64,000 bases of DNA. Source: Roseococcus microcysteis (GTDB lineage Bacteria; Pseudomonadota; Alphaproteobacteria; Acetobacterales; Acetobacteraceae). Numbering within the stretch: position 1 is the first letter of the stretch; each line of letters starts with the position of its first letter. The translations under genes and the position numbers were made by a program. The notes below the pieces were generated by a model. It ran no database searches, was not told where the DNA came from, and worked only from the letters and a program-made list of their open reading frames with translations. The stretch spans positions 1 through 64,000 of the forward strand of contig NZ_CP061718.1 of NCBI RefSeq assembly GCF_014764365.1, in the 5' to 3' direction. Below are positions 6,903 through 55,998 of the stretch, piece by piece.

Positions 6903-7615
<713 letters not shown>

Positions 7616-7619
<4 letters not shown>

Positions 7620-8362
7620 GACGCGGCCTCGTCGAAGGTGATCTTCTCGGAGCCCAGGTAGATCTCGATCACGCGCGGGTCACGCGCCACCTCGCGCGGC
7701 AGGCCTTCGAAGATCTTCTCGCCATGGTCGAGCACGATGGCGCGGTCCACGACGCGCATCAGCACGCCCATGATGTGTTCCACCCAGATGATGGTGATGT
7801 TCTTCTCCCGCCTTATGTGGCCCAGCATGTCGGCGGCGGCGTTCATCTCGGTCTCGTCCAGCCCGCCCAGGCTTTCATCGGCCAGCAGCAGGCGCGGCTG
7901 GGTGGCGATGGCGCGGGCCAGTTCCAGCTTCTTGAGGCCGGCGGCACCCAGCGACGCCACCTCGGCGTGCGGGTCGGTGGGCAGGCCCACCAGGGTCAGC
8001 GCCTCCTCCGCCTGGTCCAGCGCCTTGGCGCGCGTCACGCTGCCGCGCTGGCCGTAGAAGGCGGCGGTGACGACATTGTCCAGAATGGTGAGCTGCTTGA
8101 ACGGGCGCGGAATCTGGAAGGTGCGCCCCACGCCGCTGTGGCAGATCTCGATGGGCGCGAGACCGCCGATCTCGCGCCCTTCCAGCTTGATGCTGCCCTC
8201 GCTCGGCTTCAGCAGCCCCGCGATCATGTTGAAGGTCGTGCTCTTGCCCGACCCGTTGGGGCCGATCAGCCCCAGGATCTCGCCCTGTTCGAGCGCGAAG
8301 GAGATGCGGTTCACGGCCACGAAGCCGCTGAACCGCTTGGTCAGGTTCTCGACCTGCAGCAT
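7616..8362 (-). CDS. livG: Branched-chain amino acid-type ABC ATP-binding protein LivG
   Basis: A 248-residue ABC ATPase with Walker A GPNGSGKST, a LivG-type Q-loop region (GVGRTFQIPRPFKQL), a degenerate signature near LGAAGLKKLELARAIA, and Walker B RLLLADESLGGLDETEM with the H-loop WVEHIMG. The signature lacks the classic LSGGQ; this degeneracy recurs in LivG-type subunits that work as heterodimers with LivF. The ATG at 8362 is preceded by GGAAGGGC. It is separated from the upstream substrate-binding protein gene by 105 bp containing two hairpins, which may lower its expression relative to the binding protein. Confidence 0.92.
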
Positions 8363-8376
8363 GCCCTTCCGCCCTC

Positions 8377-8424
8377 AGAGCAGATCGCACATGGCTGGCA
8401 ACAGCCATTGCGTGAATCTGCTCT
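8377..8424 (-). promoter_or_regulatory. Long intercistronic hairpin between binding protein and livG
   Basis: A long imperfect palindrome. The outer stem is AGAGCAGAT (8377-8385) with ATCTGCTCT (8416-8424). The inner stems are CGCA with TGCG and ATGGCTG with CAGCCAT, closing a 4-nt loop. In total 20 base pairs are interrupted by one 1-nt and one 3-nt bulge. It lies in the transcript between the binding-protein gene and livG. By analogy with other binding-protein operons it may protect the 3' end of the upstream cistron or partly terminate transcription. That role is inferred. Confidence 0.6.
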
Positions 8425-8438
8425 TCATGACGCGGCTG

Positions 8439-8468
8439 GAGTGGTTTTCACGCATGTGAAAATCGCTC
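8439..8468 (-). promoter_or_regulatory. Second hairpin directly after the binding-protein stop codon
   Basis: TTTTCAC (8445-8451) pairs with GTGAAAA (8456-8462) across a 4-nt loop, and the stem can be lengthened by about six more pairs (including G-U) into the stop codon region. There is no T-run after it on the minus strand. It probably acts with the neighbouring hairpin at 8377-8424 to set the relative amounts of binding-protein and transporter mRNA. Confidence 0.5.
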
Positions 8469-9772
8469 TAGCGGGCGGCGTAGGCATGGCCCGCCGGCAG
8501 CGGGAGCACGGGGTCGGCGGTCTTCAGCGCCTCCGGCCACACAATCTTCGTCTCCCCCTCCACATACTGCATCACCACGGGGGTGGAGCGGGCATTCTGC
8601 CCCGCCATCGGGTGGCCCGGCGGGTTGAACTGCACGCCATAGCCCTGGATGGTCCCGCCCACCGGAATGTCGGTGGCGAGTGCCGCCTGGCGCAGCGCAT
8701 CGGGCGTGAAGCCGCCATGGTTGCGGATGGCGCGCGGCAGCACGTCCGTCAGCAGGATCCAGGTCTGGTTGAAGCCCATGGAGGTGTGGGGCGGCACCTC
8801 GGTCACGTTGGTCTCGGCGCGGTAGCGGCGGACCATCTCGGCCGTGACGTCGCCCAGGCCGGGTGCGAGCGAGGCCGGGTTGAGCAGCTGCGCCGCCACC
8901 GGGTCCACGTTGTAGATGTAGTTCGCGTCCTGGCGGAAGGTCTGCTGCAGGCGGTCGATCTGCCCATAGCCCGCCCCATGCCCGATCAGCGCGCGCCAGC
9001 GCAGGCCCAGCTCACGCGACTGGCGCAGGAAGAGCGTGATGTCGGGGTTGTAGCCGGTGTGCAGGATGACGTCCGGCCGTTCGCGCCGCAGCTTGGTGAC
9101 CAGCGAGGAGAGGTCGGGCGCGGTGGCCGCATAGCCCTCCTTCAGCACCAGGCGCAGGCCGAGTTCGCGCGCGGTGGCCTCGTTGCCGGCGGCCACGCCG
9201 GCGCCATAGGGGCCGTCCTCATAGATGATGGCGACGCGCACATCGCGCACCGGCTTGCCCAGGCGGGATTGCGCGTTCTCCGCCACGAAGCGGCAGGAGG
9301 CCTCGCCGAACTGGTCGCTGTGGACCTGCGCGCGGAAGACGTATTCGAGGTTGCGGTCCTTGAACACCGAGGAGGCCACGCAGACATTCGCCCACATGAA
9401 GCGGCGCTGCTGGTTCACGCGCTGCGCCATGGGCACGCAATGCGCGGACGAGAACACGCCCATGATGATGTCCACGCGCTCCTGCTCCAGCAGGCGCGTC
9501 ATCTCGTTGATGGCGACCTCGGTGCGGGATTGCGCGTCGGCGTAGATGGCGTTGAGGCGGTGGCCCTCCACGCCGCCACGCTCATTGATCATGTCGATCG
9601 CGTGCTTGGTGCCGATGGCGGAGGCGAGCGAGCCGCCGCCGGCGAAGGGCCCGGTGTAGTCATAGATCACGCCGAGCTTGATCTCGCGCTGCTGCCCGAA
9701 GGCCGCGGCGGGGACGAGGGACAGCGCGCTCGCGCCACCCAGCAATCCACGTCGGCTCAGATGATGGTGCAT
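8468..9772 (-). CDS. ABC transporter substrate-binding protein (LIV family)
   Basis: A 434-residue periplasmic binding protein of the leucine/isoleucine/valine family (Peripla_BP_6). A Tat-type signal is visible: SRRGLLGGASALSLVPAAAFG, with twin Arg near residues 6-7. It is followed by the mature start REIKLGVIYDYTGPFAGGG, the usual first strand and ligand loop. The longer frame to 9886 is rejected because AGGGAGGGACAGG precedes the ATG at 9772. It captures solute and delivers it to LivHM. The chain is longer than LivJ/LivK, as in the amide/aromatic-acid branch, so branched-chain amino acids are not assured as ligands. It has its own promoter (9834-9862), and two hairpins separate it from livG. 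Confidence 0.9.
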   Translation of the reverse strand: MHHHLSRRGLLGGASALSLVPAAAFGQQREIKLGVIYDYTGPFAGGGSLASAIGTKHAIDMINERGGVEGHRLNAIYADAQSRTEVAINEMTRLLEQERVDIIMGVFSSAHCVPMAQRVNQQRRFMWANVCVASSVFKDRNLEYVFRAQVHSDQFGEASCRFVAENAQSRLGKPVRDVRVAIIYEDGPYGAGVAAGNEATARELGLRLVLKEGYAATAPDLSSLVTKLRRERPDVILHTGYNPDITLFLRQSRELGLRWRALIGHGAGYGQIDRLQQTFRQDANYIYNVDPVAAQLLNPASLAPGLGDVTAEMVRRYRAETNVTEVPPHTSMGFNQTWILLTDVLPRAIRNHGGFTPDALRQAALATDIPVGGTIQGYGVQFNPPGHPMAGQNARSTPVVMQYVEGETKIVWPEALKTADPVLPLPAGHAYAAR

Positions 9773-43233: not shown

Positions 43234-46065
43234 ATGCGCGTGCTGCTCGACATGCAGGGCGCGCAGGGGGCGTCGCGCTCCTCGGGCGTGGGGCGCTATC
43301 TGCGAGGGCTCGCCCATGGCATGGCCCGCGCGCGCGGCGGGCGCGAACTGCACCTGCTGGTCAATGCGCGGCTGCGCGAATCCGCCGCCAGGCTGGTGGA
43401 GGAGTTCACGCCCATCCTGGGGCGCGAGGCGCTGCACCTCTTCACGCCGCCCGAGGGCTGCGCGGCGGGCGGCGACCCGCAATCCCCCCGCCGGCGCCTC
43501 GCGGAACTGCTGCGCGCCGAGGCGGTGCATGACGCGACGCCCGACCTGCTGCTGGTGGGCTCGGTCTTCGAGGGCTGGCGCGACGAAGCCGTCACCACCT
43601 GGCCCGCCAGCCTGCAACGGCCGCGCACGGCGGCGGTGCTCTATGACCTGATCCCGCTCTCGCTCAGGCCGATGTATCTCGACGGGCTGTGGCGCGAGGC
43701 GGGGCTGCTGCCCTGGTATCACCGCGCGCTGGACGAGGTGGCGCAGGCGGAGACGCTGCTCTGCCTCTCCGAGGCCACGCGGGAGGAGGCGCTGCGGCAC
43801 CTGCGCAAGCCGCATGAGCGCCTGGCCGTGCTGGGCGGCGGCGTCGAGCCGCATTTCGTGCCGCCCGAGGTGCCGGACCCCGGCCTGCCCGCGCGCTATG
43901 GCCTGCCGCCGGACTACCTGCTCTTCCTCGGCGCCGGTGACCCGCGCAAGAACGAGGGCGTTCTGCTGGACGCGCTGGCCCTGCTGCCGCCCGCGCTGCG
44001 CGCCCGCCACCCGCTCGCCATCGGCCATGTGAACCCGCCGCATCTGCGCGCCATGGCCGAGGCGCGCGGCCTGACGCCCCGCGAGGTCATCACGCTGCCC
44101 TTCGTGGCCGAGGCGGATCTGCCCGGCCTCTACGCCCAATGCGCGCTGCTGGTCTTTCCCTCCCTGGCCGAGGGCCTGGGCCTGCCGCTGATGGAGGCCA
44201 TGGCCTGCGGCGCGCCCGTGATTTCCAGCAACCTCTCGGCCATGCCCGAGGTGATGGGCCGCGCCGATGCGCTGTTCGACCCGAACGACGCGCCCGCGCT
44301 CGCCCGCATGATCGAGGCGCTGCTCCGCGATCCCGATCGCCTGGCCGAGATGCGCGCCTATGGGCTGCGCCGCGCGCGCGAATTCAGCTGGGACGCCGCC
44401 GCCGCCCGCGCCTGGCCGGCGCTGGACGCCATGGGCGCGGGGCGTGGCTACTGGCGCCCGCTGCCGCGTCCGCGCCTCGCTCTCGTGGCGCCCCTGCCGC
44501 CCGCGCCCACCGGCATCGCGGACTACACGGCCGAACTCGCCCCCGCGCTGGCGCCGCATTATGCCGTGACGCTCGTCTCCGACACCCCGCCCGAGGGCGC
44601 GCTGCGCGGCCGCTTTCCCTGGATGCCGGAAACCGAGTTCCTGGCCGAGGGCGCGCGCTTCGACCGCATCCTCTACCAGGTGGGCAACAACGCGCTGCAC
44701 GCCTCGACCCTGCGCCGCCTGCTGCCGCGCCACCCCGGCATGGTGACGCTGCACGACCCCGTGCTGACCGACCTGCGCAACTGGATGATGACCGACCGCG
44801 CCGAGCGCGAGGCGGCGCTGGCGCGGCGGGTGGAGGAGGAAGGCTACCCCGCGGCCCTGGCCGGCAAGCCCGGCGCCGGCAGCGCGGGCGTGCTGTCCCA
44901 GGCGCTCGGCGTGCTGGTCCATTCCGCCCATGCGCGGCGGCGCCTGCAGGACGAGTACGGGATGGAGGCCACCCAGCATGTGCGGGTGCTGCCGCATCTG
45001 CGCGCGGGGTCCGGCCTGCCGGCCAGGGGGCGCGCGCGGCGCGCGGCGGGGCTGGGGCGGGGGGCCTTGGTCGTCGCGGCCTTCGGCCTTGTCACCATCC
45101 GCAAGGAGCCGATCGAGCTGGTGAAGGCCTTCGCCCGCATCGCCGCGCAGTTTCCCGAGGCGCGGCTCGTTTTCGTGGGCGGGGCCCAGGATGCGCTGGA
45201 CCGGCGCATCAGCGACCTGGCGCGGCGGCTCAACCTCGCCTCGCGCGTCAGGGTCACGGGGCGCCTGCCGCTGCCCGAATATCGCCACTGGCTCGCGGCC
45301 GCCGACCTCGCCGTGCAGCTGCGCGCCGACAGCACCGGCGAGACCTCGGGCGCGGTGAAGGACGCGCTGATGGCGGGGCTGCCCGTGGTGGTCAACGCCC
45401 ATGGCGCCATGGCGGAACTGCCGGAGGGGGCCTGCCGGATCATTCCCAACAGCTTCACCGAGACGGAGCTGGCGGAGGCCATCGGCCGGCTCCTGGCCTC
45501 GGGCGAGGCGCGGAAGGCGCTGGGGCAGGCGGGCCGCGCCTGGGCGCAGGCCGCCCTGGCGCCCGAGGATGTGGGAAGGCGGCACCGGCAGCAGATCGAG
45601 GAGGCCTATCTCTTCGGGCCCGGCGCGGGCGGCCATGACGTGGCCCGCTGGGCGGCGGAGCTGCCGCTCTCGGCCGAGGACGCGGCGGCGGGCGGCGTCG
45701 CCATGGCCCGCGCCTGGCCCGGTGCGCGCCGGCCCCGGCTGTGGTTGGACATCGCCACGCCGGATTTCGAGCCGGGCTTGCTCGCGCTGCTGCGCGAGGG
45801 CGCGGGGCGTTTCCGTCCGGAGCCCTGCCGCCTTGCCGCGGGCGGCTTCGTGACCGCCCATGGCTGGGCCTGGGAGAAGCTCTCCCTGCCCGGCCTGCCA
45901 CCGCCCGAGGGGCCGGCCGTGCTGACCCTGGCGGATGCGCTGCTGACCGCGGCACCCGCGGGGCGCGAGGCGGCCATCATCGCCGGCTGCCCTCTGCTGG
46001 CGCCACCCCCTGCCGGCGCGGGCGAGGCCCAGCGCGCGGCGGTGCTGGATCAGCTCACGGATTGA
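43234..46065 (+). CDS. Tandem double glycosyltransferase (two GT-B domains)
   Basis: A 943-residue protein with two group-1 glycosyltransferase modules. The first (about 1-395) has GVGRYLRGL near the N-terminus, LFLGAGDPRKNEG near 230 and the E-x7-E motif in EGLGLPLMEAMACG near 311. The second (about 410-770) starts APLPPAPTGIADY, has FGLVTIRKEPIELV near 613 and GETSGAVKDALMAG near 702. The last 170 residues are Ala/Pro-rich and of unknown role. Two sugar transfers by one chain are likely. It directly follows the TPR glycosyltransferase, and its stop overlaps by 11 bp, tail to tail, with the alpha-2-macroglobulin gene. Confidence 0.85.
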   Translation: MRVLLDMQGAQGASRSSGVGRYLRGLAHGMARARGGRELHLLVNARLRESAARLVEEFTPILGREALHLFTPPEGCAAGGDPQSPRRRLAELLRAEAVHDATPDLLLVGSVFEGWRDEAVTTWPASLQRPRTAAVLYDLIPLSLRPMYLDGLWREAGLLPWYHRALDEVAQAETLLCLSEATREEALRHLRKPHERLAVLGGGVEPHFVPPEVPDPGLPARYGLPPDYLLFLGAGDPRKNEGVLLDALALLPPALRARHPLAIGHVNPPHLRAMAEARGLTPREVITLPFVAEADLPGLYAQCALLVFPSLAEGLGLPLMEAMACGAPVISSNLSAMPEVMGRADALFDPNDAPALARMIEALLRDPDRLAEMRAYGLRRAREFSWDAAAARAWPALDAMGAGRGYWRPLPRPRLALVAPLPPAPTGIADYTAELAPALAPHYAVTLVSDTPPEGALRGRFPWMPETEFLAEGARFDRILYQVGNNALHASTLRRLLPRHPGMVTLHDPVLTDLRNWMMTDRAEREAALARRVEEEGYPAALAGKPGAGSAGVLSQALGVLVHSAHARRRLQDEYGMEATQHVRVLPHLRAGSGLPARGRARRAAGLGRGALVVAAFGLVTIRKEPIELVKAFARIAAQFPEARLVFVGGAQDALDRRISDLARRLNLASRVRVTGRLPLPEYRHWLAAADLAVQLRADSTGETSGAVKDALMAGLPVVVNAHGAMAELPEGACRIIPNSFTETELAEAIGRLLASGEARKALGQAGRAWAQAALAPEDVGRRHRQQIEEAYLFGPGAGGHDVARWAAELPLSAEDAAAGGVAMARAWPGARRPRLWLDIATPDFEPGLLALLREGAGRFRPEPCRLAAGGFVTAHGWAWEKLSLPGLPPPEGPAVLTLADALLTAAPAGREAAIIAGCPLLAPPPAGAGEAQRAAVLDQLTD

Positions 46066-49000
46066 CCGTGATGCGCGCGGCGTTCTGCCGCGCGAAGAAG
46101 CTGGGGCGGTACATGTCCACCACCTCCGCCCCCGGCAGCTCGAAGCGGCCCGGCGTCACCACGCGCATGCGGGCGGCGATGCGGACCTCCCGCGCCTCGC
46201 GGTTGAAGGTGAAGGCGGCGGCCAGGCGGTCATCCAGGGCGGGCATGGCGTCCACCTCCGAGAGCTGGCCGAGGTCCGGCTGGCCGGGCACGGGGCCGGC
46301 GGGCAGGCGCGTGACGATCTCCCACCCCGCGGGCAGGCCCTGGGTGAGCATGGCCATGTGCTCCTGCCCGCTCTCGGCGCGGGCATCCAGCACCAGCAGG
46401 AACTCCACGCCAGGGCGCATGGTGTCGAGGTTCAGCGCCTGGCCATCCAGCGCCAGGAAGCGGCGGCGGATGGTCATCTGCTGGCGCCCGGCGGGGGCCG
46501 CCTGGGCGGGGGTGCCGGAGATGGCGATCTGCACGGGCAGGGGCGCCTCGCCCGCGTTGCGGAGAACGCCGCCCCCGGTCACGTCCAGAACGCGCGCCTG
46601 GGTGGCGGTGCCGTTCCAGGCGGCGCGGAGGGGCCGCGCATCCTGGCCGAGGGTCACGGCCGCCAGCACGGCCCAGGCCTGTTCCTGGGTGGAGGCGCGG
46701 GCGGGGGTCAGTTCCGGGCCGGGCAGGCGGGCCGCGGCGGCGCTGATCTGGGCGGCGGGCAGCCCGGCCTCGCGCGCCAGCACCACCAGGGCCAGCGCGT
46801 CGCGCGCGGCGCTGCCGTAGTCGTAGAGCCAGTCGGTGCGCGCCGTCATGGCCAGCGCCTCGGCGAAGGCGGCGTTCGCGCGCTCCGCATCGCCCGCGCG
46901 GGCGAAGCTGGCGGCGAGCTGCGCGCGTGACAGCGGCGTGGGCAGGCGCGAGGAGACCTCCAGCAGCCGCCGCGCCGCCCCCAGCCGGTGCCGCCCGGCG
47001 AGGGAGAGCGCGTTCAGCCGCGCCGCCTGGGCCGCGAAATGCGCGGGTTCGGAGGGGCTCTGGTCCAGGCGTTCCTCGAGGTCCGTCAGCGCCGCCTGCA
47101 AGGGCGCCTCGGGCACGTTGGCGCCGGCGGCGCGGGCGCGCAGCAGCGCCTCCACGGCATAGGCGGAGGTCCAGTATTGCGGCTCGCCCTGGGCGGACCA
47201 CAGGCCGAAGCTGCCATCGAAGCGCTGCCGGGCCAGGATGCCGTCCACCGCGCGTTGCAGGGCCGCGAGGTCGCGCGATGGGCTGCCCTCGTTCAAGGCG
47301 GCCGCCATGCCGATGGCCTGGGACGACACCTGCTCCAGGCAGGCCAGCGGGAAGGCCTGCAAGGCGGCCAGCATCCCCGCCGCGTCATAGCGCACGGGCG
47401 AGCCGAGGCGGGCCACGGCCCGCCAGCCCGGCAGGAAGGCCCGCGCATCGGGCGCGAGGCGCGCCTCGGCGCCCGGCGCCACCTCCATGGTCGAGAAGGC
47501 GGTCGCGATGGGGCGGGAAGACCGCACCGTGATCCGCGCCTCGCGCGTCGCGGTGAAGCCGCTGGGGCCGGTGACGGAGAGGCGCAGCACGCCCTCGCCA
47601 GGTGCGGTGGCACTCAGCGGCAGGGCCGGCTGGGCGCGGGCGCCCGCATCCAGCTGCGCCGTGATGCGCGCCTCGCCGCGCAGCGCCAGCGCGCCCTCGG
47701 CGGTGAGGTTCACCACCACCTCGCCCGCCGGCAGTTCGAGGTTGTGCAGCAGCAGCGCCGCATCCGCCTCATCGCCGGGGGCGAGGAAGCGGGGCAGCAG
47801 GGGTTCGGCCAGCAGCGGGTCGCGCACGGTGAGCGGGCGGGAGGCCGCGCCCACCCGCGCCTCGGCCCAGGCCACGGCCATCAGGCGCAGCTCGCCCGCG
47901 AAATCGGGCAGGTCGAGGGGGATCACGGCGCGGCCCTGCGCGTCCGTCTCCACCACGCCGCTGAACAGCGCGACGTTGCGCTGGGGCGGCGTGAGCGCGG
48001 CCAAGCCGTCCATGTCATCGCCGCCCTGGCGCAGCGTGGCGGGCGTGCCATCGGGCGGGGCGATCAGCCGGCCGTAATCGTCGCGGATGTCCACGCCCAA
48101 GGTGCGGCGGCCCATGTAGTGCGTCAGCGGGTCGGGGCTGGCGAAGCGGGTCAGGCGCAATATGCCCTCATCCACCGCGGCCAGCGTCAGCCGCACGGGG
48201 CCGGAGGCGCCCGCCACGGTGACGGGGAGATCCAAGCGCGTGTTGGGCCGCACGCGGTCGGGCGCGTCCAGCGTCACCGCCAGCGCCCGGCTGTCGCGCG
48301 CCATCTGCACCCAGGCGAGGCCGAGCGCGCGGCCTGGTTGCTGCGGCCCGGATTCGGGGCGGAAGACCGTCACGGCCACATAGGCGCCCGCCCCCCAGGC
48401 CGCCTCGGCGGGGAGGGTGATTTCGGCGCCCGCCTCGGGCACCTCCATCTCGCGGATCGAGACCAGGCGGTCGGTCAGCACCGCCACCGCGGCGCGGCCG
48501 GCGAAGGGCGGCGTGATCCGCAGCGTCACCGTCTCGCCGGGCGCGTAGCTGGCGCGGTCGGTGGCCACGTCCACGCGGTCGGGCACCTCGGCGCTCTCGC
48601 TCGCCACCCAGCCGGAGCGGAAGCGGATGGAGGCCAGCGCCATGCCGCCCGCCTCCTGCGCCTCCAGCCGGTAGCGGCCGAAGGGGAGGGTGCGGGTGAA
48701 GCGGCCGGGCTCGGTGCCGGTGAGGCGGATGGGGGTGCTGTCCACCGGCTCATCGGTCCAGACCGTCTCGTAGCGGGGCGTGCCGCCGCGGACGACGATG
48801 CGCCAGTCGGGGCGTTCGCGCACGAGGCGGAGGTTCACCTCGCCGGCGAGGGGGTTCCCCTCGGCATCGGTCATGATGACCTGCACGGCGGCCTCAGCCC
48901 CCGCATCCACGGCGAAGGGCGCGGCGAGGCCCAGGAAGCGCGGCTGCGCGGCCACGGCGAGGTCCAGCGTGGCGCGGGAGGCGCGGCCGCCCGGTTCCTC

Positions 49001-51133
49001 CACCAGCACCGTCACCTCGCCGCGCAGCGGGCGGGTGGTGTCGGGGGCGGAGGGGAGTTCGAGCCGCAGCGTGGCGCGGCCATCGGCGTCGGTCTCGGGC
49101 AGCTCGGCCTGGATCAGGTCGGGGGCGAAGGTCTCGTCCTCCAGCCCGAAGCGGAAATCGCGCCAGCGCTCGAAGGGGCTGCGCTGGGTGGTCAGGCGCA
49201 GCTCCGCGCTGCCCGACAGCCCGCTGCCCGGCGCGCCATAGAGGAAGCGCGCGGTGACGGGGAGGTCGAGCGGCTGGCCCGGCCGCAGCGGGCCGGGGGC
49301 GGGGCCGGCCTCGACGGCCAGGCGCTCGGCCACGAAGGCCTCCACCCGGAAGGTGAGCTGGCCGACGGGCGGCGCGTTGGGGTCCGTCACGGCCTCCAGC
49401 GTCCAGGCGCCGGCCTGGGCGCCCAGGGGCAGGGCAACGGGCCAATGGCCGCCATCGCGCACCACCTGCTCGGCCAGGATCTGCCCATTGGGGCGGCGCA
49501 GGCGCAGGCGCAGCGGCGCGTCCACCGGCGCCCCGCCCACATTGCGCAGCAGCGCCATGGCCTGCACCGTCTCGCCCGGCCGGTAGATGCCGCGATCCAG
49601 CCACAGGAAGGCATCCAGCGGCCCGGGATGCGCGCGCCCCGCCACGCCCCGGTCGGACAGGTCGAAGGAGGCCGCCTCCAGGTTCAGCGTGACGAGATCG
49701 TCGTCCGTCATGGCGTGCAGCGCCACGGCCGCCATCGGCCCCTCCCCGCGCAGCAGCGGGGCGTTGAAGCGCGCCAGCCCGTCGGGGCCGGTGGTGGCCT
49801 CGGCCAGGATGTCGTTGTTGCGGGCCATCAGCGCCACCCGCACGCCCTCGCGCGGGGCGGCGGAGGCGAGGCCCCGCACCTGCGCCGCCAGCCCGCCCGC
49901 GCCGCGCCAGGCCGTCAGGCCAAGGTCCGTCACGATCAGCGGCTGCGCCGCCGTCAGCCCGCGCGAATCCCGCGCGCCATCGGCCGGGCGCGCCACCATG
50001 ATGTAGAGGCCGGGGCCGGCCGTCCGCACCGCCTCCGGCAGGGGCACGGCGAGGCGCTGGAAGCGGTTGGCCTCGCCGCGCGGCAGGTCTATCGCGCCCT
50101 CCCACACCACCTGGCCCCATTCCTCATGGAGGTAGCCCGCGGTCCAGCCGCTGATGGCCTCGCCCAGCCGCGTCTCGCGCGAAAAGGGAACCAGGCTGCG
50201 CTCCGTCAGGCGGATCACGCGCATCTCGATGGCCGAGATGTTCATCAGCGCCATGGGCACCCGCGCCTCGGCACGGTCGCGCGGCATGAGGTAGTGGCCG
50301 GGGTCGAAGGCGAGGCGCGGCGCCCGGTCGGGCATGGCGATGTTCAGCACCTGGTCCTGGTTCACCCGCAGCCCGTCCTCGCCGGGCATGCCCGCGCGCA
50401 GGATCACGCGCGTGCTGCGGCCGAGCGGCAGGCCCAGGATGCAGATCGAGTCGCGCTCGCGCGTGAAGCCGAGGCCGGGAATGGCGGGTTCGGCGCGCAG
50501 CCAATCCTCGGGGCGCCAGTCATCGCGGCGGGCGGGCGGCGTGGTGAAGCCCAGGCAGGCGCGGGCGGGCTCGGCGTCAGGCTCGGTGTTGAGGCGGCGG
50601 ACCAGCACGCCCACCTCGCGCCGCGCGGCGGCGAGCGCCTGCTGGTGGCGGGGGTTGGAGGGGTCGCGCTGCAGCACGGCCTCAAGTGCCGCCAACCGCG
50701 GCAGGGGGCGGTTCTGCGCGGCCAGCGCCTCCGCCATCACCAGCAGCGAGGGGATTTCGGGCGCGCCGCCCGGCACCTCGATGAAATTCTGCCAGGCGGC
50801 GCGCAGCGCGCGGACGCCATCGGGCGGGGTGCGGCGGAGTTGCGCGCGGGCCAGCGCCAGCCATTGCTCGGGCGTGGCCTGGCCGAGGGCCACGCGCGCC
50901 TCCCAGGCCTCGGCGGCGGCGGCCCAGTTGTTCTGGCGCTCGGCGGTGGCGGCGCGGCTTTCGGCGGCCTGGCGCTGCGCGGCGGTGCCGCCGGCGGGGT
51001 GGCGCCGTTCCAGCTCATTGCGGTAGCGCTGCGAATCCTGCCAGAGGCCGGGAATCTCGAAGCCCTGCGCGGCCAGCGGCGCGGCGGGCAGGGTGAAGGC
51101 CAGCAGGAACAGCAGGAACAGGCGCCGGAACAT
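46055..51133 (-). CDS. Bacterial alpha-2-macroglobulin family protein
   Basis: A 1692-residue exported protein. The N-terminus has a cleavable signal (LFLLFLLAFTLPAAPLAA). Repeated macroglobulin-like beta domains follow (for example DRGIYRPGETVQAMALLRN near 510). A thioester motif CLEQ has its Cys at residue 1265, followed by the alpha-alpha toroid domain and a C-terminal receptor-like domain. The intact thioester suggests covalent trapping of proteases in the periplasm, as for YfhM-type proteins. There is no lipobox. In many bacteria the partner penicillin-binding protein 1C gene is next; it is absent here. AGGAAG precedes the ATG at 51133. The DNA between it and the P450 gene holds a palindrome. 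Confidence 0.92.
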   Translation of the reverse strand: MFRRLFLLFLLAFTLPAAPLAAQGFEIPGLWQDSQRYRNELERRHPAGGTAAQRQAAESRAATAERQNNWAAAAEAWEARVALGQATPEQWLALARAQLRRTPPDGVRALRAAWQNFIEVPGGAPEIPSLLVMAEALAAQNRPLPRLAALEAVLQRDPSNPRHQQALAAARREVGVLVRRLNTEPDAEPARACLGFTTPPARRDDWRPEDWLRAEPAIPGLGFTRERDSICILGLPLGRSTRVILRAGMPGEDGLRVNQDQVLNIAMPDRAPRLAFDPGHYLMPRDRAEARVPMALMNISAIEMRVIRLTERSLVPFSRETRLGEAISGWTAGYLHEEWGQVVWEGAIDLPRGEANRFQRLAVPLPEAVRTAGPGLYIMVARPADGARDSRGLTAAQPLIVTDLGLTAWRGAGGLAAQVRGLASAAPREGVRVALMARNNDILAEATTGPDGLARFNAPLLRGEGPMAAVALHAMTDDDLVTLNLEAASFDLSDRGVAGRAHPGPLDAFLWLDRGIYRPGETVQAMALLRNVGGAPVDAPLRLRLRRPNGQILAEQVVRDGGHWPVALPLGAQAGAWTLEAVTDPNAPPVGQLTFRVEAFVAERLAVEAGPAPGPLRPGQPLDLPVTARFLYGAPGSGLSGSAELRLTTQRSPFERWRDFRFGLEDETFAPDLIQAELPETDADGRATLRLELPSAPDTTRPLRGEVTVLVEEPGGRASRATLDLAVAAQPRFLGLAAPFAVDAGAEAAVQVIMTDAEGNPLAGEVNLRLVRERPDWRIVVRGGTPRYETVWTDEPVDSTPIRLTGTEPGRFTRTLPFGRYRLEAQEAGGMALASIRFRSGWVASESAEVPDRVDVATDRASYAPGETVTLRITPPFAGRAAVAVLTDRLVSIREMEVPEAGAEITLPAEAAWGAGAYVAVTVFRPESGPQQPGRALGLAWVQMARDSRALAVTLDAPDRVRPNTRLDLPVTVAGASGPVRLTLAAVDEGILRLTRFASPDPLTHYMGRRTLGVDIRDDYGRLIAPPDGTPATLRQGGDDMDGLAALTPPQRNVALFSGVVETDAQGRAVIPLDLPDFAGELRLMAVAWAEARVGAASRPLTVRDPLLAEPLLPRFLAPGDEADAALLLHNLELPAGEVVVNLTAEGALALRGEARITAQLDAGARAQPALPLSATAPGEGVLRLSVTGPSGFTATREARITVRSSRPIATAFSTMEVAPGAEARLAPDARAFLPGWRAVARLGSPVRYDAAGMLAALQAFPLACLEQVSSQAIGMAAALNEGSPSRDLAALQRAVDGILARQRFDGSFGLWSAQGEPQYWTSAYAVEALLRARAAGANVPEAPLQAALTDLEERLDQSPSEPAHFAAQAARLNALSLAGRHRLGAARRLLEVSSRLPTPLSRAQLAASFARAGDAERANAAFAEALAMTARTDWLYDYGSAARDALALVVLAREAGLPAAQISAAAARLPGPELTPARASTQEQAWAVLAAVTLGQDARPLRAAWNGTATQARVLDVTGGGVLRNAGEAPLPVQIAISGTPAQAAPAGRQQMTIRRRFLALDGQALNLDTMRPGVEFLLVLDARAESGQEHMAMLTQGLPAGWEIVTRLPAGPVPGQPDLGQLSEVDAMPALDDRLAAAFTFNREAREVRIAARMRVVTPGRFELPGAEVVDMYRPSFFARQNAARITVNP

Positions 51134-51176
51134 GGGCAGGCTTCCTCGACCATTGCCGGGCGGCTGATTCACGGCA

Positions 51177-51268: not shown

Positions 51269-52615
51269 TCAGCGCGGGGTGACGGACAATGTCATCCCGC
51301 CCCGCGGCCGCACGCTGAGCCGGGCGCGCGGCATGGGGCGCGTGCTCTCCGGCACCGCGAAGTCGAGGCGCTGGAGCAGCACGGCCAGGAAGGCCGTCAT
51401 CTCGGCCTGGGCGAAGGCCGCGCCCGCGCAGATGCGCGGCCCCAGCGAGAAGGGAATGTAGCCGAAGCGCGGCGGCTTGCGCGGCGCATCCGGCAGGAAG
51501 CGCTGGGGGCGGAAGGCGTGCGGCGCGTCCCAGAGCTGCTCATGCCGGTGCAGCAGCCAGGGCAGGGCCATGACCGTATCCCCCGCGCGCACCGTCACCT
51601 GGCCGATGCGGTCGGCCTTCGCCGCCTCGCGCGAGAGATAGGGCACGGGGGGGTAGAGGCGCATCGCCTCCTGGGTCACGGCCTTGGTGAAGGGCAGGCG
51701 GGGCAGGTCGGCATAGTCCGGCGCGCGGCCGCCCAGCACTTCCGCATGTTCGGCGCGCAGGCGCTCCAGCGTGGGGGGGTGGCGGGCGATGAGGTAGAGC
51801 GACCAGGTCAGCGCATTGGCCGAGGTCTCGCTGCCCGCCAGCAGCATCATGCCCAGCTCGTTCACCAGCGCCTCGGCGTCGAGCAGCGGCAGGCCCTGGG
51901 CGTTCAGCGCGGCGCGCATCTCGGCGAAGAGCCCGCCCTCCTCCGGGTCGGCGGCGGCGATGCAGCCTGCGATGGTCGCGCGGATGTCACGCGCATGGCG
52001 CAGCGCCCCGCGCAGCTGGAAGCCCGAAAGCCGGTCGGGCAGGCCGAGCAGATGGGCGAAATCCACCGCCAGCACGGATTGCTCATATTCGGCGAAGCTG
52101 GAGGCGATGCGCCGCGCCGCCGCTTCCGTGCCGGTGCGCGGGAACAGCGCGCGCATGACGGCGAGCGCCGTCGTGCCCGCCAGCTCCGCCGAGACATCCA
52201 CCTGGCCCCGCCAGCGCGAAGCCACCTCCTCCGCCCCCTGCACGAACAGCGGAAAGAAGCCCGCCGTCCGCGCCGGGTGCAGCAGCTTCATCACCACCGC
52301 GCGCCGCTCGGCCCAGAGGGGGCCGTGATTGCCGAACATGCTGTCGCCCAGCACGGGCGAGACGGCGGAACGGAAATGCCGGCTCTTCGCCTCGTAATCG
52401 GCCGCGTGCAGGATGAAGACGTGCCGCACCAGGTCCGGCTCGTTCACCACCAGGGTGCGCTGGCGCAGGGTGCGGATGGGGATCAGGCGGTGGCGGAACC
52501 CCGTCTCGGGGAAGAAGCGCAGCAAATCCTGCGCCGAGGTGCGGATCATCGCCCAGGGGCCGGGGAAGCGGGCGGGCAAGGCGGGGCGCGGCGGGATCAG
52601 GTCCGGGGCGGACAT
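51269..52615 (-). CDS. Cytochrome P450
   Basis: A 448-residue soluble P450. The I-helix oxygen-binding motif is AGSETSANA (near 250), the K-helix ExxR is EAMRLYPPVPYLSREA, the meander region PHAFRPQRFLP is present, and the haem loop FSLGPRICAG holds Cys396. All catalytic features are intact. It is a class I-type enzyme needing ferredoxin and reductase, none of which are adjacent. The ATG at 52615 is chosen over a longer frame because the family N-terminus starts here. It is 43 bp downstream of the acyltransferase-like gene and probably co-transcribed with it and the MFS gene, suggesting a tailoring enzyme for an exported or detoxified small molecule. Confidence 0.92.
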   Translation of the reverse strand: MSAPDLIPPRPALPARFPGPWAMIRTSAQDLLRFFPETGFRHRLIPIRTLRQRTLVVNEPDLVRHVFILHAADYEAKSRHFRSAVSPVLGDSMFGNHGPLWAERRAVVMKLLHPARTAGFFPLFVQGAEEVASRWRGQVDVSAELAGTTALAVMRALFPRTGTEAAARRIASSFAEYEQSVLAVDFAHLLGLPDRLSGFQLRGALRHARDIRATIAGCIAAADPEEGGLFAEMRAALNAQGLPLLDAEALVNELGMMLLAGSETSANALTWSLYLIARHPPTLERLRAEHAEVLGGRAPDYADLPRLPFTKAVTQEAMRLYPPVPYLSREAAKADRIGQVTVRAGDTVMALPWLLHRHEQLWDAPHAFRPQRFLPDAPRKPPRFGYIPFSLGPRICAGAAFAQAEMTAFLAVLLQRLDFAVPESTRPMPRARLSVRPRGGMTLSVTPR

Positions 52616-52658
52616 CAGGCGGAACTCCAGGGCGCCAGAAGGGCGGCGCGGGGAGTGG

Positions 52659-53417
52659 CTAATCCCGTGGCGGGGGCGCGTCCAGGGCGGCCAGCTCCTC
52701 GGCGATGGGTCCTTCCAGCGCCGCCTGCATGGCGGCCATGGCGCGGATGGCGTCCGACCCGTCCAGCACCCGGTGGTCCATGGCGAAATGCAGGGCGACC
52801 GCGCCATCGGGCGCGATGGGGCCGAAGCTGAGGAAGACCGGCACGATGCTGACGCTGTCCAGCAATTCCCCGCCATGCTCGCCCAGCGCCGAGATGGCGT
52901 AGTTGCCCCCCAGGCGCAGCACGGGCCAGCCGAGTCCCATGGAGAGCGCATAGCCCGCCCGCCGCAGCGGCCAGGGCAGGCGCCCGGCGGCCAGCATCCA
53001 GCGCAGGGCCGCGCTTGCCGCGCGCGGGCTGGCCTTCACCGCCGCCAGACGCGCGGCCAGGTCCGGCAGGGGCGTGTCATGGGCGCGGAACAGCCGGGCG
53101 GGGGCGAGCAGGGTCTCCTCCCCATCGCGCGCCTCGACCATCACGCAGCCCTGGGCGTGCGGCGCCTCGATCAGGTGTGGCCAGGGCAGGCTGGCATGCA
53201 CCCGGCGCAGCGGCGGGTGCTGCTGCGCGGCGATGGCGAAGGCCTTGGCGAAGAGGGCGGTCCAGGGCGGGCGGGGGGCGGGCAGCGAAGCGCGGGCCGC
53301 CCGCGCGCGCGGAATGACGAGCTGCCCGCGGAAGAGAAAGCGCGGCACGGCGCGCGAGGCGGCGGAGAGATCGCCCATCAGCCGCCGCCCCGGGCTCAAG
53401 GCGATGCGCCGGATCAT
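52659..53417 (-). CDS. Stand-alone E2-type acyltransferase-like protein
   Basis: A 252-residue protein resembling the catalytic core of 2-oxoacid dehydrogenase E2 subunits and chloramphenicol acetyltransferase. The hallmark DHRVLDG, with His215 as general base, is preserved near the C-terminus (HFAMDHRVLDGSDAIRA). No lipoyl or E1-binding domain is present, and the N-terminal 60 residues are basic. Such stand-alone proteins would accept acyl-CoA or an acyl carrier, but no substrate is known. Its start overlaps the MFS gene stop (ATGA at 53417-53414), and the P450 gene follows closely. Confidence 0.68.
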   Translation of the reverse strand: MIRRIALSPGRRLMGDLSAASRAVPRFLFRGQLVIPRARAARASLPAPRPPWTALFAKAFAIAAQQHPPLRRVHASLPWPHLIEAPHAQGCVMVEARDGEETLLAPARLFRAHDTPLPDLAARLAAVKASPRAASAALRWMLAAGRLPWPLRRAGYALSMGLGWPVLRLGGNYAISALGEHGGELLDSVSIVPVFLSFGPIAPDGAVALHFAMDHRVLDGSDAIRAMAAMQAALEGPIAEELAALDAPPPRD

Positions 53418-54796
53418 CGCTTGCCGCTGACCTCCGCCCCCACGTCGCGCGGCAGGCGCAGCGCGAGGGGGGCGGCGCTGGCCACCACCAGCCCCGCCAC
53501 CAGGAAGGCCGTGGTGAAGTCCGCCACCGCCAGCGCGTCGCGGCCGGCCAGATGCTGGCTGACCTCCAGCGCGGTGGAGGCGATGACCACGCCGATGGCC
53601 GGCGGCAATTGCTGGGCCGTGCCGTAGAAGCTGGTGCCCGCGCTCAGCCGCTCGCGCGGGATGTCCGCGAAGGCCAGCGTGTTCAGCGAGGTGAATTGCA
53701 GCGATCGGAACAGCCCGCCGAGTGCCAGGGCCGCGAAGAGTGCGGCCACCGGCCAGGCGGGCGAGAAGGCGGCGCCGATGGCCACGCCGGCCGCCGCCAG
53801 CAGGCCGTTGGCCACCAGCACGTTGCGGAAGCCCCAGCGCCGCAGCACGGGCCTGGCCAGGGGCTTCATGGCGAAGGCGCCCAAGGCCGTGGCGAAGGCC
53901 ACCAGCCCCGCCTGGGTGGCGCTCCAGCCGAAGCCCAGCTGCAGCAGCAGCGGCACCAGGAAGGGCACGCCGCCCGCGCCGGCGCGGAACAGGCTGCCGG
54001 CCAGGGTCGCATAGTGGAAGGAGGGGAAGCGCAGCAGCGTCAGGTCAATGGCCGGGCGCTTGGCCCGCCGGCAATGGCGCAGCGCCAGCAGCGCGACCAC
54101 GCCGCCCAGGACCAGCAGCGCCTCCGGCATGCCGGCGGGGAAGACGCCGCGGCCCACCGTCTCGAACCCCGCCATGAGGGTGGCCAGCGCGCCGCCGACC
54201 AGCAGCAGCCCCTTGATGTCGGGCGGGCCCGGGTTCTGGACGGGCAGGGGGGTGATCTTCCAGGCCACCAGCGCGAAGCCCAGCAGCGCCACCGGCACGT
54301 TCAGCCAGAACACGCTGCGCCAGCCGAAGAGGTCCGTCATGATGCCGCCCAGGGGTGGCCCGGTGATCGGCCCCAGCATGGCGGGCATGGTCAGCCAGGC
54401 CATGGCGGTCAGCATCTCGTCCTTGCGGATGCCGCTGAGCAGCAACAGCCGCCCCACGGGCACCATCATGGCGCCGGCCATGCCCTGGAAGATGCGCGCC
54501 GCCACCAGCTCGCCCAGCGAATTGGCGAAGCCGCAGGCGGCCGAGGCCGTGCCGAACAGCAAGATGGCCATGAGGAAGACGCGCTTCGCCCCGAAGCGGT
54601 CCGCCACATAGCCGCTGACCGGGATGAAGACCGTCAGCGCCACCAGGTAGGAGGTGATGGCCACCCCCAACCGCGCCGGGTCCTCGTTCAGATCCCGCGC
54701 CATGGCGGGGAGCGCGGTGACGACGGCCGAGCTGTCGAGGTTCTGCATGAACAGCGCCGAGGCGACGATGATCGCGGTGGTGCGTGTTCCTGCCAT
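53414..54796 (-). CDS. MFS drug/metabolite transporter (DHA2/EmrB-like)
   Basis: A 460-residue polytopic major-facilitator protein. The N-terminal helix ends in NLDSSAVVTALPAMARDL, the DHA2-type motif D. VSGYVADRFGAKRVF is motif A, and GPITGPPLGGIMTDLFGWRSVFWLN is motif C, the antiporter signature of exporters. It probably pumps a hydrophobic compound out against protons. It is the first gene of a three-gene unit with the acyltransferase-like and P450 genes, and is divergent from the phnW-like gene 86 bp away. Confidence 0.9.
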   Translation of the reverse strand: MAGTRTTAIIVASALFMQNLDSSAVVTALPAMARDLNEDPARLGVAITSYLVALTVFIPVSGYVADRFGAKRVFLMAILLFGTASAACGFANSLGELVAARIFQGMAGAMMVPVGRLLLLSGIRKDEMLTAMAWLTMPAMLGPITGPPLGGIMTDLFGWRSVFWLNVPVALLGFALVAWKITPLPVQNPGPPDIKGLLLVGGALATLMAGFETVGRGVFPAGMPEALLVLGGVVALLALRHCRRAKRPAIDLTLLRFPSFHYATLAGSLFRAGAGGVPFLVPLLLQLGFGWSATQAGLVAFATALGAFAMKPLARPVLRRWGFRNVLVANGLLAAAGVAIGAAFSPAWPVAALFAALALGGLFRSLQFTSLNTLAFADIPRERLSAGTSFYGTAQQLPPAIGVVIASTALEVSQHLAGRDALAVADFTTAFLVAGLVVASAAPLALRLPRDVGAEVSGKR

Positions 54797-54882: not shown

Positions 54883-55998
54883 ATGCCCGACATGCTCCTG
54901 CTGACCCCCGGCCCCGTCCAGACGCACCCCTCGGTGCGCGCCGCCATGGATGAGGACATCGCCCCCTGGGATGCCGAGTTCCGCCCCTTCTACACCAGCC
55001 TGCGCGAGCGGCTGCGGGACCTCGCGGGCGGGGTCGAGGGCGTGCATGCCACCCTGCCGCTGCAGGGTTCGGGCCACATGATCCTGGAGGCCGCGCTGCG
55101 CACCTATGTGGCGCCGGGCGCCACCCTCCTGGTGCCGATGAACGGGGAATACGCGGTGCGCATCGCCCGCCTGGCGCGCGAGGCGGGGCGCGCGGTAGTG
55201 GAATTGCCGGCCCAGGACACCCATGCCGTGACGTCCGAGGCGGTGGCGGCGGCGCTGGAAGCCCACCCCGAGGCCACGCACCTCGCCATGGTGCAGAGCG
55301 AGACGGGCAGCGGCATCGTGAACGACGTGGCCGCCATCGGCGCCGTGGTGCGCGCGGCGGGGCGGCGGATGATCGTGGACGCGGTCTCGGCCTTCGGGGC
55401 GCTGCCGCTGGACCTCTCGGCCCAGCCGGAACTGGACGCGGTGGTCTTCACCTCCAACAAATGCCTGGAGAGCGTGCCGGGCTTCGCCTTCGCCGTGGCG
55501 CGGATGGACCGCACGGAGGCATGCGCAGGGCAGGCGGGGTCCTGGAGCCTCGACCTCTCGGACGTGCTGGCCCAGGCCAAGCGCAGCGGCTGGGGCAGCC
55601 TGCGCTTCACCGGCCCGGTGCAGACGCTGCGGGCCTTGGAAGTGGCGCTGGACCGGCTGGATGCGGAAGGCGGGCCGGCGGCGCGGCTCACGCGGTACCG
55701 GGCCAATGCGGCGCGGCTCTACCAGGGGCTCTGCGCGCTGGGCCTGCGGCCTTACCTGAACCAGGCCGAGCAGGGGCCGGTGGTGGTCACCTTCCACCAG
55801 CCGGACGGCATGGATTTCCATGGTTTCGTGGGCGCGCTCAAGGCGCGCGGCGTGAACATCAGCGCCTACTACACGACCGAGGCGCCGACCTTCCGCGTCG
55901 GCGCCATCGGCGATGTGGGCCTGGCCGAGATGGACCGCGCGGTGGCGGCCATCGCGGAGACCCTGGCCGCGATGGGCAAGCTGCCCGCCGCGGCCTGA
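54883..55998 (+). CDS. phnW: Class V aminotransferase, probable 2-aminoethylphosphonate--pyruvate type
   Basis: A 371-residue PLP enzyme of fold type I. LLLTPGPVQTHPSVRAAM and the wide LPLQGSGHMILEAALRTYV are typical of the PhnW/alanine-glyoxylate aminotransferase group. DAVSAFGALPLDL supplies the cofactor Asp. SNKCLESVPGFAF holds the Schiff-base Lys193, and the end TEAPTFRVGAIGDV matches PhnW closely. The start has GGCAAGGGCAGG upstream. No other phosphonate gene (phnX, phnA, phnY) is adjacent, so a role in glyoxylate transamination is the alternative. Confidence 0.72.
   Translation: MPDMLLLTPGPVQTHPSVRAAMDEDIAPWDAEFRPFYTSLRERLRDLAGGVEGVHATLPLQGSGHMILEAALRTYVAPGATLLVPMNGEYAVRIARLAREAGRAVVELPAQDTHAVTSEAVAAALEAHPEATHLAMVQSETGSGIVNDVAAIGAVVRAAGRRMIVDAVSAFGALPLDLSAQPELDAVVFTSNKCLESVPGFAFAVARMDRTEACAGQAGSWSLDLSDVLAQAKRSGWGSLRFTGPVQTLRALEVALDRLDAEGGPAARLTRYRANAARLYQGLCALGLRPYLNQAEQGPVVVTFHQPDGMDFHGFVGALKARGVNISAYYTTEAPTFRVGAIGDVGLAEMDRAVAAIAETLAAMGKLPAAA

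Follow-up and report, generated by a model that had tools for sequence, protein, structure and literature searches.

A stand-alone E2-type acyltransferase gene and a cytochrome P450 gene recur as a pair in Roseococcus

The window analysed here is a stretch of 64,000 nucleotides from Roseococcus microcysteis, whose genome is a single contig of 4.2 Mb. It contains neighbouring genes for a cytochrome P450, a stand-alone acyltransferase of the E2 type (AT, a name also used for its relatives) and a transporter of the major facilitator superfamily (MFS), which a preliminary description of this DNA had presented as a cassette for the oxidation, acylation and export of one small molecule. The three-gene arrangement is real, but the unit was misdrawn: what recurs in other genomes is the pair of AT and P450, and the interest of the locus lies mostly in the AT family. 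On balance, we favour the view that AT and P450 form a two-enzyme modification module, in which the P450 hydroxylates a substrate and AT acylates the hydroxyl from acyl-CoA. In such a module, the P450 would hydroxylate a small, probably hydrophobic molecule, and AT, a free E2-type catalytic domain, would then move an acetyl or, less likely, another acyl group from coenzyme A to the new hydroxyl. In this lineage, export of the product may fall to the MFS transporter, whose gene now overlaps that of AT.

The recurrence of the pair emerged from a survey of 397 genomes of the family, in which G-numbers denote genomes, L-numbers loci, and the prefixes g and f genera and families, G000 being the window genome. 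AT was found in 26 of these genomes and the P450 clade, defined by matches at 1e-170 or better, in nine. All five Roseococcus genomes that hold AT carry it adjacent to the P450, and they do so at two locations or more: in G000, G044 and G124 the pair lies between the MFS gene and a gene for an alpha-2-macroglobulin, in G352 it stands beside a polysaccharide deacetylase gene, and in G175, where AT and P450 overlap by 4 bp, it is found about 5 kb from the counterpart of this deacetylase gene. The P450 clade is present in eight of the 14 genomes of the genus, and the chance that all five AT genomes fall within these eight is 0.028 under the assumption of independent genomes, which does not hold. 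A 4-bp overlap between AT and a P450 gene is also seen in G685, a 78% complete genome from another alphaproteobacterial family, whose P450 is 36% identical to that of the window; one of the four genomes from the order and family of G685 contains AT. The pairing gains further support from genus g72, in which one site, bounded by a gene for UvrB on one side and by genes for a fumarylacetoacetate (FAA) hydrolase and then an endonuclease/phosphatase-family protein on the other, carries the P450 in G141, and AT with an extra catalase-like gene in G284. The claim of the preliminary description that a stand-alone E2-type acyltransferase is linked to a P450 is thus borne out by the recurrence of the pair across genomes. 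In the AT tree, the five P450-linked copies of the genus belong to one clade of 12 (100/100), which includes unlinked copies, and in the P450 tree the window protein groups with that of G338 (100/97). AT is 90% identical in a record of Roseococcus suduntuyensis and 93% identical in one of R. thiosulfatophilus. Across the phylum, AT was detected in eight of 299 genomes, all of one class; a peptide-pattern scan of genome contigs yielded two loci, and a comparison of the P450 with plasmid records returned eight records at 33-34% identity. Behind the AT-P450 pair of G685 (L122, 2460-7973) lie genes for a beta-lactamase-fold hydrolase, an HI0933-like flavoprotein and a zinc-dependent alcohol dehydrogenase; this may be a fuller cluster, which could reveal the pathway.

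The assignment of AT to the E2 type is based on its predicted fold and its active-centre residues. An AlphaFold2 model, which like the conservation analysis was based on 24 aligned rows, reached a pLDDT of 91.9 and a pTM of 0.90, and the top matches in Foldseek and VIA-align were filled by E2 cores with Z-scores of up to 21.3 (9j1w, 204 aligned residues, rmsd 2.5), which points to the fold of an E2 catalytic domain. The motif DHRVLDG, described earlier as intact, is indeed present at residues 214-220. D214, H215, R216 and D219 are conserved in all 24 rows and S176 in 23 of them; in an alignment with an E2, these residues fall into its segments GTFTIS and DHRVVDG. AT passes the Pfam cut-off for PF00198 (23 bits); a genome-wide search gave 22.3 bits for a partial stretch, just under this value, and the G685 relative scored 20.8. 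S176, D214, H215, R216 and D219 correspond to Thr323, Asp374, His375, Arg376 and Asp379 of the Escherichia coli protein E2o, the match of S176 to Thr323 being a reading of the motif. These five E2o residues have been mutated, and Asp374 and His375 are given as the most important ones in the available part of that study, which also quotes a His-Asp-Gly consensus (PMC5986005).

The P450 contains the motifs FSLGPRICAG, EAMR and AGSET, all of them intact, which we take to be the heme-cysteine loop, the ExxR motif and the I-helix motif, respectively. Its mechanically called open reading frame opens at position 52951, while homology favours the ATG at 52615; the Pfam query started one codon late. 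The best solved relatives by sequence are the chloroplast carotenoid enzyme LUT5, cholesterol 24-hydroxylase, CYP4B1 and P450 BM3; a carotenoid, a sterol or a lipid was considered as substrate on this ground, but the relatives are too distant to name one. Another P450 of the same genome (C1, 3106743-3109410), 36% identical to that of the window, has a ketosynthase domain at a distance of about 600 bp, and an open frame of 2389 amino acids at 2.63 Mb includes a ketosynthase.

The layout of the three genes on one strand, with a 4-bp overlap between MFS and AT and a gap of 43 bp between AT and P450, was confirmed, and the overlap may couple the translation of MFS and AT. None of the three genes contains an internal stop, and pairwise dN/dS values among G000, G044 and G124 are low (0.16-0.28 for AT, 0.08-0.10 for P450 and 0.05-0.08 for MFS), so that all three appear to be maintained by purifying selection. 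The P450 need not close the unit, since the alpha-2-macroglobulin gene starts shortly after it on the same strand. No sigma-70-like promoter was found at the locus, where shuffled sequences lead one to expect only 0.1. The trio of the preliminary description can be read as a phase I-II-III cassette, in which P450 oxidation, acylation and MFS export would serve the detoxification or secretion of an outside compound, a reading that we regard as rather unlikely. It is consistent with the single strand and with the 4-bp MFS/AT overlap seen in three species, as well as with the relationship of the MFS protein to multidrug pumps. The absence of an enzyme that makes a scaffold, as stated earlier, was borne out for ketosynthases, the class searched for: none of the six ketosynthase-domain matches of the genome lies in the window, which also speaks for this reading. 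However, the full trio occurs in three of the 397 genomes (G000, G044 and G124), all of them Roseococcus with an identical flanking gene order, and no trio was found outside this syntenic lineage among the genomes of the family. The MFS gene has a strong match (E <= 1e-70) in 316 of the 397 genomes, compared with 26 for AT. In G175 and G352, AT and P450 stand together while the MFS orthologue is located elsewhere in the genome, and the fetched AT-P450 stretches of G175, G352 and G685 contain no relative of the window MFS. A trio inherited as a unit was therefore rejected: AT and P450 stand as a recurring pair, whereas the MFS gene does not stand as a conserved member. Four g95 genomes have another MFS gene that converges with AT (identities of 27 and 25% for the two that were aligned), and in both G278 and G301 one lies upstream of the P450; these neighbours favour the trio, yet they are different MFS genes.

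The divergent pair of MFS and PhnW-like genes is kept in 12 of the 13 other Roseococcus genomes and is missing in G338, in which MFS and P450 occur together. All seven genomes without the AT-P450 pair whose stretch held both the alpha-2-macroglobulin and the MFS gene have two genes (about 1030 and 375 amino acids) between them, which in L096 are an AcrB-type pump of the resistance-nodulation-division (RND) family and an HlyD-type adaptor according to Pfam and which in the other genomes were judged by size and start. A close copy of this RND pump was not found in the window genome, where the best match is 37% identical to the L096 pump. The two intervening genes are absent here, and AT and P450 occupy the site at which relatives keep the pump and the adaptor. 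The MFS gene is a common gene, which stands beside the pair only in this small lineage and is not an inherited part of a module; its protein may export the product or may have no part in this, and its position and the 4-bp overlap are the sole pointers to such a role. A tight operon in a single lineage can therefore mislead as to which genes form the recurring unit.

A coincidence of accessory genes with unrelated roles would also place AT next to a P450; this we consider unlikely. AT and P450 each occur alone in many genomes, and the neighbours of each vary between genera. On the other hand, a coincidence would have to explain the adjacency in every AT-bearing Roseococcus genome at two or more locations, and also that AT and a P450 overlap independently by 4 bp in a genome from another family. 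Several observations nevertheless weigh against a dedicated AT-P450 module. Only five of the 26 AT genes of the family adjoin a P450, although some of the stretches are short, and a P450 stands beside AT in none of the 21 loci of family f171. Four of the nine genomes with the P450 clade (G338, G278, G301 and G141) have no detected AT; in G338, the P450 occupies the pump site of its relatives, and AT may have been lost there or may never have been present. Furthermore, the motif alone proves no chemistry, because an E2o variant with Trp in place of His375 retains 60% activity and the authors, in the available part of their paper, doubt an acid-base role of this residue (PMC5986005). Finally, the tree gives the AT of the window species a long stem (0.67), and no other gene among five local ones has so loose a dN/dS, which may reflect a change of function.

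Outside Roseococcus, AT relatives have other partners. A same-strand neighbour encoding a hydroxyl-forming oxidoreductase or a P450 was found for 21 of 48 AT loci and for 16 of 367 control genes from the same loci, counts for which the oxidoreductase classes were picked post hoc with the neighbours already seen, in which rows are related, and in which control partners are perhaps under-detected because some of the partners already seen had served as seeds for the hidden Markov models of the classes. Four of seven further short loci have a partner as well. By context, same-strand partners occur in eight cases: the window, G175/G352, G685, g95, g72 (G072/G225), g34, the rhizobia and f171 (L144/L145). 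The partner is a 2-hydroxyacid dehydrogenase encoded upstream of AT in g95, with a 4-bp overlap in three of four, a short-chain dehydrogenase overlapping AT in g34, an iron-containing alcohol dehydrogenase encoded by the next gene to AT in G072 and G225, and a short-chain dehydrogenase/reductase (SDR) in L144 and L145. In the four rhizobial records inspected out of 31 plasmid records matched, AT overlaps an SDR gene by 4 bp, and a gene resembling isoprenylcysteine carboxyl methyltransferase (ICMT) lies upstream (Table 1). One of these records (L156, CP090106.1) is labelled as plasmid pSymB of S. meliloti; it measures 3.7 Mb, carries tgt and coaD and may be a chromosome. Such a partner is lacking in the remaining 27 of the 48 loci. 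Of the 21 f171 loci, 19 belong to this group, some of them with neighbours that look like murI and rpsD. The loci L048 and L049 have an SDR gene on the opposite strand and were excluded from the count; the AT copy of G088 (L049, 6642-7394) is split over two reading frames, as a pseudogene or through an assembly error. It is possible, and we put it forward only tentatively, that AT represents a family of free E2-type O-acyltransferases, undescribed as far as the open-access literature shows, whose members swap partners among the Alphaproteobacteria and cap freshly formed hydroxyl groups, the window pair being one case. Depending on the lineage, AT would then be coupled to a P450, an SDR, a 2-hydroxyacid dehydrogenase or an iron-containing alcohol dehydrogenase, in many cases through an overlap of 4 bp. 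If so, many alphaproteobacterial genomes encode an unrecognized modification step, and the common partner theme would offer a direct route to the substrate.

Chloramphenicol acetyltransferases (CAT) and E2 proteins have an HxxxDG-type catalytic core in common. AT could therefore also be seen as a CAT-like acetyltransferase that inactivates an antibiotic, with the drug pump-related MFS protein and the P450 as further resistance determinants. This is very improbable, as the closest folds are E2 cores and AT is partnered by metabolic oxidoreductases in other genomes. A further reading, in which AT is an accessory or degenerate E2 and still works for pyruvate or oxoglutarate dehydrogenase, agrees with the fold and the active-centre residues that AT shares with E2, but it is scarcely credible and was rejected, since PF00198 is the only domain matched in the 252 amino acids, with neither a lipoyl nor a peripheral subunit-binding domain, two E2 domains are encoded elsewhere in the genome (292 and 281 bits, where AT scores 22), and no E1 or E3 is present among the five local proteins scanned.

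Table 1. Features of the Roseococcus locus and of the rhizobial AT loci. Window genes were annotated for about 46-59 kb, and the Pfam scan covered five local proteins.
Feature	Position	Strand	Remarks
MFS transporter, DHA2/MdtD-like, 460 aa	53414..54796	-	Pfam MFS_1 7e-52; best NCBIfam match MdtD PRK10504
Stand-alone E2-type acyltransferase (AT), 252 aa	52659..53417	-	Pfam 2-oxoacid_dh 7e-07, 29.4 bits (cut-off 23)
Cytochrome P450, 448 aa	51269..52615	-	Pfam p450 (PF00067) 1e-63
ATGA, 4 bp shared by the MFS stop and the AT start	53414..53417	-	
AT-P450 spacer, 43 bp	52616..52658	-	
Bacterial alpha-2-macroglobulin (A2M)	46055..51172	-	96 bp downstream of P450; near MFS in relatives too
PhnW-like aminotransferase	54883..55998	+	diverges from MFS, 86 bp apart
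Closely spaced rhizobial genes for an ICMT-like methyltransferase, AT and an SDR	L156-L159, about 7388-9652		

In the open-access literature, no paper was found on the combination of an E2 subunit, a P450 and an MFS transporter or on a cytochrome P450 of Roseococcus, and the available part of one Roseococcus paper does not mention a P450 (PMC8776678). The individual components can be compared with known systems. MdtD-type transporters provide the best NCBIfam match to the window MFS, and the MFS genes of relatives likewise lie near an RND pump and adaptor; with 275.9 bits, however, the match to PRK10504 stays below the curated cut-off of 426, so that the protein is MdtD-like only, and a close copy of the RND pump is missing from the window genome. 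The E2 cores of 2-oxoacid dehydrogenase complexes resemble AT in fold, length of the catalytic domain, the D-H-R-x-x-D-G motif and the position of a Ser/Thr residue, whereas AT is only 14-21% identical to them in structural alignments and lacks the lipoyl and binding domains as well as a link to E1 or E3. At one locus among L156-L159 and in further Ensifer records, AT nevertheless carries the label '2-oxo acid dehydrogenase subunit E2'; several proteins of the family are thus annotated as subunits of dehydrogenase complexes, although the window AT lacks the domains needed for this role. The AT-SDR pairs found in rhizobia and in further Alphaproteobacteria belong to the same AT family and share the 4-bp overlap with an oxidoreductase gene, but the rhizobial pairs have an SDR partner and an ICMT-like upstream gene rather than a P450.

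The closest parallel by description is found in the biosynthesis of tetronate antibiotics, to whose pathways the E2-type acyltransferases Agg4, QmnD3, AbmA4 and Mad17 belong (PMC5819245, PMC7489565). According to the available parts of these papers, AbmA4 and its homologues Agg4 and QmnD3 are free E2-type proteins that acetylate a hydroxyl group (PMC5819245), and AT as proposed here would likewise be a free E2-type protein acylating a small-molecule hydroxyl; AbmA4 is listed with 280 amino acids, similar to the 252 of AT. The tetronate enzymes are encoded in polyketide clusters together with an Agg5-type alpha/beta hydrolase, which eliminates acetate, whereas AT has a P450 as its partner, the window contains no ketosynthase domain, and neither an alpha/beta hydrolase nor tetronate genes are represented among the five local proteins. 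Stand-alone E2-type O-acetyltransferases are already known from Agg4 and AbmA4, and the AT-P450 pair would be a variant of this kind.

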